DNA of 36,817 bases from a virus. The notes under the pieces were generated by a model. It saw only the letters and a list, made by a program, of their open reading frames with translations. It had not been told where the DNA came from and made no database searches. Each line of letters starts with the position of its first letter. Position 1 is the stretch's first letter. This document shows positions 8,451 to 33,573 of the stretch, piece after piece. The position numbers were made by a program, and so were the translations under genes. Location of the stretch: positions 1 through 36,817 of IMG/VR virus record IMGVR_UViG_3300034121_000176; one strand, 5' to 3'.

Positions 8451-9517
<1,067 letters not shown>

Positions 9518-9521
<4 letters not shown>

Positions 9522-28025: not shown

Positions 28026-28370
28026 ATGAACAACGAAGTAACAATCACAGGTAAGATTAAGAACGTACGTACATTCACAGGTTCAAAGGGAACCATGGTG
28101 ACAGGCTGGTTTGACCAACGCGAAATCTCAGCGTTCTCAAACGGAGAGGCTGACCGTCAAGTGTATGTATGTGGGTTTAATATCGTGGCATTGGATGACT
28201 CAACCGTAGGTGAAATCCTTGGTGTGACTCGTGCTGGTCAGGAACAATCCGACCTGGTAACACTTAAAGGTCGTCTAGTTACACGCTTTGACCGTCGTCA
28301 AAACGTGGAGGAAAGCGCACGTAAAGCACCTCAGTTACAGTTAGAAGTTCACGAGGTCGTAACAAACTAA
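28026..28370 (+). CDS. Single-stranded DNA-binding (SSB-like) OB-fold protein
   Basis: The 114-residue protein follows the strand order of bacterial SSB. The opening NEVTITGKIKNVRTFTGSKG resembles the SSB start VxLxGxLxxxPxxxxxxxG. VYVCGFNIVAL fits the central strand, and LVTLKGRLVTRFDRRQN matches the SSB segment VxVxGRLxxRxxxxx. It is shorter than cellular SSB and has no acidic C-terminal tip. It probably coats single-stranded DNA during phage replication or recombination. AACAAGGAGAAACAG precedes the ATG, and a strong terminator follows directly, so it may end a short early transcript. The assignment is by pattern, not by search. Confidence 0.6.
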   Translation: MNNEVTITGKIKNVRTFTGSKGTMVTGWFDQREISAFSNGEADRQVYVCGFNIVALDDSTVGEILGVTRAGQEQSDLVTLKGRLVTRFDRRQNVEESARKAPQLQLEVHEVVTN

Positions 28371-31673: not shown

Positions 31674-31690
31674 TTTACCTATCAGGTAAA
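31674..31690. repeat. Inverted repeat TTTACCT-ATC-AGGTAAA
   Basis: A 7-base perfect stem (31674-31680 and 31684-31690) with a 3-base loop begins two bases after the DUF932 stop. There is no T-run after it on the plus strand, so it is more like an operator or a weak 3' hairpin than a terminator. Confidence 0.45.
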
Positions 31691-31702
31691 TGCGCAGTAT
31701 GG

Positions 31703-31731
31703 CTGTATAGTTTCTTTCATTTTCTATACAG
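31703..31731. promoter_or_regulatory. Inverted repeat CTGTATAG-N13-CTATACAG
   Basis: CTGTATAG (31703-31710) and CTATACAG (31724-31731) are exact inverted copies. The half-site shares the CTGTA/TACAG core with the control region at 26493-26813, which suggests the same regulator may act at both places. The 13-base AT-rich spacer would place the half-sites two helical turns apart. Confidence 0.45.
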
Positions 31732-31921
31732 TTATTACCCTTCACTGGGTTGTCCCGCCAGTGGCGCACACGGGGCACATTATTGGTATGCATACTGCAA
31801 TAGCAGCGATAGCGCCAAGACATATGAACCAGCGTAAGGGAACCTACGCCCAAGATGCAGGTAGTTATGTCAACACCTGAGCATGTGTGTAAACTGCTCA
31901 TCCAAACAACGAGAGGAACAC

Positions 31922-32320
31922 ATGAACACAATCCAAGTTACAACAACAGATGGCACAGTAAATTATACTGAGTCAGAAATCCTACGTTTCATACAGAAAG
32001 TAGATGAGTTAGATGAGTTCAAGCAAACAGCAATTGACAATCGTCATAAAGTCCGTGACTTCTTCAGTGAAAGTGAATGGTCAGATGGTGAAGCAACAAT
32101 CTCAAAGTCAGATGTCAATGTATTACTTGAATCCATCGGAGCCAACAAACTTACAACAAAGTACCGCGCTACATACACAATCACTGGTACCTTCAGCGTA
32201 GATGTAGATGACGAAGATGATGTTGAGTCTTTGTTTACAGATAATGTTTCAGTTGACTTCTACGATGGCGACATTGATGTTGACCAGATTGAAGTGCTAG
32301 ACATTGAGGCTGATGAGTAA
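31922..32320 (+). CDS. Acidic protein, unknown
   Basis: From ATG 31922 (GAGAGGAACAC upstream) the 132-residue protein is strongly acidic. It begins MNTIQVTTTDGTVNYTESEI and has a helical middle. A C-terminal beta segment TYTITGTFSVDVDDEDDVES leads to DFYDGDIDVDQIEVLDIEAD. Such acidity could mimic DNA or regulate a DNA-binding partner, but this is speculation. It is coupled as TAATG to the winged-helix gene. An extension to 31883 is rejected because the ribosome site fits 31922. Confidence 0.6.
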   Translation: MNTIQVTTTDGTVNYTESEILRFIQKVDELDEFKQTAIDNRHKVRDFFSESEWSDGEATISKSDVNVLLESIGANKLTTKYRATYTITGTFSVDVDDEDDVESLFTDNVSVDFYDGDIDVDQIEVLDIEADE

Positions 32321-32700
32321 TGGCAGAGTACGTACCTTATAGACCATACAAAGGTACGGCTGGATGGTCAGGCACTGATACATCAAAGGCTCGTGCTATA
32401 GATAACATTACATCTGGTAGGGAATTAAACCACCAGCAGTTAGCGTTACGTATATTAAAAAACAGGGGCACTGAAGGTGCCACATGGAAAGAACTAGCAA
32501 TAGATACAGGATGGCACCACGGCACAGCCAGTGGTGTGTTGTCAGTTCTGCATCAGTCTAGTGCTATAGTACGTGGTATTACAGCACGTAATGGGTGCAA
32601 GATTTATGTGCATCAAGATTACAAAGACCAAGTGAAGCATGTAGTATACAAGAAACGCGAGAAGTTTTGTCCGCATTGCGGCAATGACATCAACGCATAG
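32320..32700 (+). CDS. Winged-helix DNA-binding protein, putative early regulator
   Basis: The 126-residue protein has a helix-turn-helix / winged-helix core at about 36-90: LNHQQLALRILKNRGTEGAT, then WKELAIDTGWHHGTASGVLS and a wing (AIVRGITARNGCKIYV). It ends in a short CPHCG knuckle (117-121), which may bind zinc with another ligand. This layout fits a phage transcription regulator, plausibly acting on the inverted repeats at 31703 or 26493. That link is inference. It is coupled by TAATG to the acidic protein upstream and followed by a strong hairpin. Confidence 0.65.
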   Translation: MAEYVPYRPYKGTAGWSGTDTSKARAIDNITSGRELNHQQLALRILKNRGTEGATWKELAIDTGWHHGTASGVLSVLHQSSAIVRGITARNGCKIYVHQDYKDQVKHVVYKKREKFCPHCGNDINA

Positions 32701-32722
32701 TCCGTCACACTATGCTAAGATG

Positions 32723-32794
32723 AATGGGTTAGGAGTGGTGGGGTTTCGGTTCTCTCCTTGTTCCCACCCTCTTAACCCATTTAACAAAGGAGAG
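32723..32794 (+). promoter_or_regulatory. Long hairpin whose loop complements the next Shine-Dalgarno
   Basis: AATGGGTTA, G, GAG and GGTGGG (32723-32742, one bulged T at 32736) pair with CCCACC, CTC, T and TAACCCATT (32763-32781). This gives about 19 pairs including one G-U. The 20-base loop contains CTCTCCTT (32752-32759). That is perfectly complementary over 8 bases to AAGGAGAG (32787-32794), the ribosome site of the nuclease gene starting at 32797. A loop-to-SD pairing would be a pseudoknot that hides the site. No T-run follows, so a terminator is unlikely. Confidence 0.6.
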
Positions 32795-32796
32795 TT

Positions 32797-33573
32797 ATGT
32801 CAGAAGTAGAAGTACCAAGAGACCGTTACGGTAGACCAATGGTAGTGCCACCCAAAGGTGGCAAGGCTGTACCATATACAAGAACAACAACAGTTGCAGG
32901 TTCATTAGATGATGGCACTGCATTAGTAGCATGGAAGTTACGCATGGCTGCAGCAGGATTAACGCTGCGCTCTGACCTATTACTAGCAGCATCAGCCAAT
33001 AGAGATAACAAGTTGGAGATGGACAAGTTAGTTGAAGACGCAATGGAAGCAGCAGGTGCTACTAAGCAGGCTAACATTGGTACTGCATTACATACACTGA
33101 CAGAGAAGTATGACAGAGGTGAAGACCTAGGTGTTATACCTGATGAGTATGTTGCTGATATACAGGCGTATGCAGATGCAACTAAAGACTTTAAGAATGT
33201 ATTCATCGAGCAGTTCTGTGTGCTAGACAAGTACAAGATTGCAGGTACACCTGACCGCGTAGTTGAATACAAGGGCGAGTTGTATATCTCAGACCTAAAG
33301 ACTGGTAGTATTTCCTACCCAAATAAGATTGCCATGCAGTTAGCAGTGTATGCACACGGCTTGCCGTATGACCCCGCCACGGCAACCCGTGGTTCTTGGG
33401 GTGGTGTCAACCAAGATAAGGGAATCATTGTCCACCTACCAGCAGGTAGTGGTAAATGTGAACTGCATTTCGTTGACATCAAACAAGGTTGGAAAGGTAT
33501 AGAATTAGCAATGAAAGTTCGTACCTTTCGAGATACAAAAAAGTCCCTAGTAACACCTATTCAAGGAGAATAA
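32797..33573 (+). CDS. RecB/Cas4-like PD-(D/E)XK exonuclease
   Basis: The 258-residue protein has the motifs of the RecB-type nuclease fold: GTALHTLTE with His99, IAGTPDRVV with Asp153, ISDLKTG with Asp166 and Lys168, and QLAVYAH with Gln181 and Tyr185. This fold digests DNA ends and serves phage recombination or host DNA breakdown. The N-terminal part (about 1-90) is helical and may bind DNA. Next to it are a Zn-binding protein and a RecA-like ATPase, a recombination or replication set. Its Shine-Dalgarno may be masked by the preceding hairpin. Confidence 0.82.
   Translation: MSEVEVPRDRYGRPMVVPPKGGKAVPYTRTTTVAGSLDDGTALVAWKLRMAAAGLTLRSDLLLAASANRDNKLEMDKLVEDAMEAAGATKQANIGTALHTLTEKYDRGEDLGVIPDEYVADIQAYADATKDFKNVFIEQFCVLDKYKIAGTPDRVVEYKGELYISDLKTGSISYPNKIAMQLAVYAHGLPYDPATATRGSWGGVNQDKGIIVHLPAGSGKCELHFVDIKQGWKGIELAMKVRTFRDTKKSLVTPIQGE

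Follow-up and report, generated by a model that had tools for sequence, protein, structure and literature searches.

A covarying leader hairpin with a loop complementary to the ribosome site of a phage exonuclease gene, and the pseudoknot it may form

The exonuclease gene and its leader

The window (the whole stretch of DNA analysed) is a 36.8-kb virus record with a G+C content of 44.2%. An open reading frame on the + strand at 32797-33573, with its ATG at 32797, matches PHROG 466 (exonuclease, E 1.8e-64) as well as the Pfam profile PF12705 (PD-(D/E)XK). It is followed on its 3' side by genes for a DnaB-like helicase, a RusA-like protein and a primase. That the exonuclease is potentially toxic, as proposed in a first-pass annotation of the window, is a guess. 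Its matches include actinobacteriophage proteins and the record resembles the isolated Planktophila phages E7 and F5 (39 kb, 44.7-44.8% G+C; PMC10202952), which together suggest an actinobacterial host. Bacterial genomes queried with the exonuclease yielded no relative.

Two hairpins, P1 and P2, lie on the + strand ahead of this gene. P2 occupies 32723-32781 and is defined by folding and covariation. Its 5' arm (32723-32743) and 3' arm (32762-32781) form 20 pairs, interrupted only by a bulged U at 32736, and enclose a loop of 18 nt (UUUCGGUUCUCUCCUUGU, 32744-32761). The first-pass annotation had placed this hairpin correctly but had counted 19 pairs. It had also pointed out the complementarity that is central here: the loop segment CUCUCCUU (32752-32759) is the exact 8-base complement of the exonuclease Shine-Dalgarno sequence (SD), AAGGAGAG at 32787-32794, a site recognized from the sequence and its relatives. 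A linker of 5 nt (32782-32786), which would be loop 3 of a pseudoknot and for which the required length was estimated, separates the stem from the SD.

The fold of the 161 nt around P2 has a z of -2.3, only 2.6% of shuffled loops pair equally well with the exonuclease SD, and relatives preserve the arrangement through covarying changes; it therefore exceeds chance. In a covariance-model search of the window the P2 element was the sole strong match (runner-up at E 0.41).

P1 (32695-32715) has the arms GCATAGT (32695-32701) and ACTATGC (32709-32715) and the loop CCGTCAC. Its 5' arm contains the TAG stop of the upstream ORF, and the hairpin adjoins an extended -10-like element, TGC-TAAGAT (32713-32721, + strand), a putative promoter element from which transcription is predicted to start at about 32727-32729, within the lower stem of P2.

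Several other descriptions of the P2 region were rejected. It is not an intrinsic terminator, as the first-pass annotation had also held, when this is defined as a GC-rich hairpin followed by a T-run: the bases after the stem are TAACAAAGGAG and a terminator scan did not list it. A short upstream ORF running through the hairpin was discarded since its frame relative to the exonuclease takes all three values and its stop varies among relatives. An additional helix between the segment following the -10 element and the linker occurs in some close groups only and is lost in divergent members (judged by eye).

Two features elsewhere in the window were also recorded. A non-coding block of about 240 nt (31680-31921) lies ahead of the ORF starting at 31922; it has a fold z of -1.9 and no Rfam match, and may represent a second structured RNA. 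Of the fetched loci, 228 contain similar DNA, many as short stretches only, and in locus L467 such a block stands immediately 5' of the exonuclease gene (84.5% over 168 nt). The ORF at 8451-9521 (- strand) contains nine-base periodic repeats at about 8610-9373, suggestive of a collagen-like product with Gly-X-Y repeats.

Conservation of the hairpins and of the loop-SD complementarity

Relatives were collected from viral contigs by two protein-seeded searches, whose loci are free of loop bias, and two loop-pattern searches, whose loci are biased by the loop. Together these gave 129 distinct leaders of the close clade, and the hairpin precedes the same exonuclease gene in all of them and in about 40 distant ones (exonucleases 62-68% identical where measured). 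An exonuclease start follows 214 of the 216 loop-pattern matches, the remaining two being truncated at contig ends, and each of nine records scanned in their entirety holds a single copy. Two loci, L228 and L239, have a small ORF inserted after the element and ahead of the exonuclease; here the element adjoins the SD of this first ORF. The inserted ORFs lie at 2780-2989 in L239 and from about 1492 in L228; that of L239 encodes 69 aa with a signal-peptide-like beginning and has no Pfam match. The carriers amount to hundreds of phage sequences, mostly freshwater and metagenome-derived, and probably infect actinobacteria. Three cultured relatives (L220-L222) gave no match to the covariance model, their exonuclease start overlapping or abutting the upstream gene, and a third exonuclease clade (L465-L486) is without a P2-type hairpin.

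Stem covariation, which the first-pass annotation had named as a check, was found. In an alignment of 74 distinct rows, model-fitted and therefore leaning towards the structure, each of the 22 pairs modelled for P1 and P2 shows changes on both sides, 91.9% of the cells are paired, and the covariation score is 0.495 as against 0.201 after shuffling and at most 0.114 with slid partners. Independently of that alignment, the stem arms of 55 leaders pair better with their own partner than with a swapped one (-27.4 vs -17.2 kcal/mol). P2 cells include 82 G-U and only 2 A-C combinations; the element therefore acts as + strand RNA. Comparison of the relatives shows P2 to be a real + strand RNA hairpin, in which a stem bulge is usual.

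P1 has changes on both sides at each of its 7 pairs, and 95.7% of its cells are paired. Its arms differ between clades while the loop is often CCGTC or CCGTT in both, and its spacer varies in length. It is missing in L158, L195 and L239, of which L239 and L158 have TATAAT and CATAAT, respectively. A TAnnnT motif ends 6-7 nt ahead of the first stem base of P2 in 79 of the 129 leaders, and in most of the others the folded stem reaches further back. In clade 2 the motif is sharply placed, 29-32 nt ahead of the loop core. This spacing leads us to infer that transcription begins at the base of P2 or just within it.

Across the close clade, loop and SD remain complementary in a constant register: all leaders but L195 (128 of 129) have a loop 7-mer whose 7 bases all pair with the SD. 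The variants observed all preserve pairing (SD A to G opposite U in 39 and 2 leaders; loop C to U opposite G in 4). With both sides conserved, swapping the partners makes no difference to the strength (-11.8 for own and -11.6 for swapped combinations), and the close-clade pairing alone is not compensatory. The distant lineages are more informative. Clade 2 pairs the loop GUCUCCUU with AAGGAGAC, and 33 of its 36 distinct leaders have one G-C pair more; L464 pairs UUUUAGUC with GACUAAGG. The L464 loop reaches -7.7 with its own site and is poor with those of other lineages (-0.5 to -3.5, one -8.0). Since clade 1, clade 2 and L464 pair with different sequences, comparison shows that the complementarity has been conserved through sequence change. 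The persistence of loop-SD pairing among relatives, which the first-pass annotation had proposed to look for, thus extends from the close leaders to distant clades where it is re-established with other sequences.

The strength of this pairing is uneven. L462 and L463 show 7-bp pairing with a G-U or a bulge, while that of L316 and L077 is weak and no better than for shuffled loops. Counted per lineage and uncorrected, the fraction of composition-shuffled loops that equal the native pairing is 0.3-3% for many lineages, 7-15% for L239, L463, L243 and L462, 76% for L077 and more than 99% for L316. Outside the anti-SD segment, conserved loop bases are UUUYGG in clade 1 and UUUUGAUUA in clade 2. Moreover, clade 2 mostly has 10-16 nt between the paired segment and the start codon, and in 31 of the 36 leaders a second SD-like site is nearer to the start, so that a pseudoknot there would lie beside the working SD instead of including it.

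A putative pseudoknot and its competitors

Taken together, we think it probable that the leader of this exonuclease-helicase-primase operon folds into a cis-acting H-type pseudoknot which closes the ribosome site and lowers translation of the exonuclease. Transcription from the -10-like element would begin at the base of P2 or close to it, placing this long hairpin at the head of the message. Its pyrimidine loop could pair with the purine-rich ribosome site just 3' of the stem, giving a pseudoknot in which S1 is the P2 stem and S2 a loop-SD helix of 7-9 bp. Binding of the 30S subunit would be blocked and exonuclease translation would stay low, with possible relief through unfolding by the ribosome or ribosomal protein S1, by a phage protein (for example the exonuclease itself) or by a ligand. 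Promoter, start site, pseudoknot formation and repression are all predicted from the sequence and its relatives, repression being the likeliest effect of the pseudoknot.

Such a structure appears feasible. By an estimate from ideal A-form geometry, in which strand lengths are rough assumptions, a linker of 5-7 nt spans 13-17 bp and the pseudoknot is allowed. Steric impossibility as a general objection was accordingly set aside, the same estimate confining it to short linkers such as that of L258, which at 1-2 nt would require a frayed stem. A simple energy sum, with a generous geometry filter and roughly assumed penalties of 9.6 or 7, puts the pseudoknot ahead by an average of about 4 to 6 kcal/mol. 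The exonuclease SD pairs more strongly with the loop than with the anti-SD (-13.3 vs -9.5). The loop-SD pairing that, according to the first-pass annotation, would hide the exonuclease start is supported by comparison, with two reservations: the segment that pairs in clade 2 is in most cases a site other than the start-proximal SD, and the L258 linker is too short unless the base of the stem opens.

The first-pass annotation had further spoken of an RNA switch. The loop-SD pairing on which this was built is backed by comparison but switching itself was not borne out, as no ligand, protein or condition was found. The more ambitious possibility, that of a widespread phage RNA family in which a transcript-initial hairpin closes the ribosome site of a recombination and replication operon until a phage protein or a host signal opens the structure in the course of infection, is thus offered tentatively, as rather less likely than repression by the pseudoknot.

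Two alternatives are unlikely to the same degree. P2 may be a protein operator, whose loop or pseudoknot is bound by the exonuclease or another phage replication protein that represses translation. This would account for the conserved loop bases beyond the anti-SD segment and for the usual stem bulge, would suit the clade 2 pseudoknot upstream of the true SD, and has precedents in T4 gp32 and gp43, each acting on its own message (PMC3014915). However, no candidate binder was identified, and such an operator is compatible with the pseudoknot rather than exclusive of it. Alternatively, P2 may protect a 5' terminus, the mRNA starting at the base of the hairpin and being shielded from decay at its 5' end, with loop-SD pairing as a secondary matter. 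With 6-7 nt between the end of the -10-like element and the stem in most relatives, little or no unpaired 5' end would be left, and the stem is kept whatever its sequence. Protection nevertheless leaves unexplained why the loop is conserved and why its complementarity to the SD persists when both differ.

Action in trans, with a released P2 pairing through its loop with the SDs of other phage or host messages, is highly improbable. The SDs at 28026 and 30166 (AACAAGGAGAAA and AACAAGGGAGAAG; -15.9 and -15.4) are indeed stronger partners of the loop than its own SD is, but the element always lies directly before an SD, those of the inserted ORFs included, and the loop of L464 fits its own SD and hardly those of other lineages. 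Least credible of all is that P2 works at the DNA level (as an operator, replication origin or cruciform) or as an intrinsic terminator and matches the SD by chance: inverted repeats between operon genes and a P1 adjoining the -10 region might suggest it, but this reading is disfavoured for P2 by the tolerance of G-U and not of A-C, the variable P1 spacer, the missing T-run and the complementarity maintained in other clades.

Comparison with known leader RNAs

Rfam gave no match in the window at gathering thresholds. With the cut-off relaxed to E <= 10, every family retrieved by the segment 32650-32850 was unrelated (for the most part eukaryotic microRNAs and snoRNAs) and far below its cut-off, and the preQ1 covariance models did not match this segment up to E = 10; six relatives matched no family at E <= 0.5. 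Comparison of the leader DNA with 50,697 deposited phage records gave no convincing match, and the RNA family is not described in the open-licence papers searched. Translation-acting leader pseudoknots are seldom reported from phages, one case of viral autoregulation being named in a 2010 review (PMC3014915); the present family is widely sampled, strongly covarying and without an Rfam entry. Its leader offers a compact and testable RNA for the control of a phage recombination operon.

The element is not filed as a member of the preQ1-I or the T4 gene 32 type, which it resembles in part. The preQ1 class I type III riboswitch is an H-type pseudoknot that controls translation by full occlusion of the SD, with a pyrimidine-rich stem-loop pairing with AAGG of that site (PMC11625349), and the plan proposed here is similar. 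Unlike preQ1-I, the gene downstream is a phage exonuclease and not a queuosine gene, and the putative pseudoknot is without an assigned ligand. S1 is short in preQ1-I riboswitches and much longer in the present leader.

The leader of gene 32 in T4, T2 and RB69 likewise precedes a phage replication/recombination gene and contains a pseudoknot acting on translation (PMC3014915). There, however, the pseudoknot is bound by gp32, whereas in clade 1 of the present family it is the SD itself that would pair. The translational operator of gene 43 in T4 and RB69 is also a hairpin with a conserved loop before a replication gene (PMC3014915), but the stem is long and freely varying in our case. Finally, in the tisB leader of E. 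coli the pseudoknot is essential for standby-mediated translation, while the one proposed here would act by occlusion of the SD.
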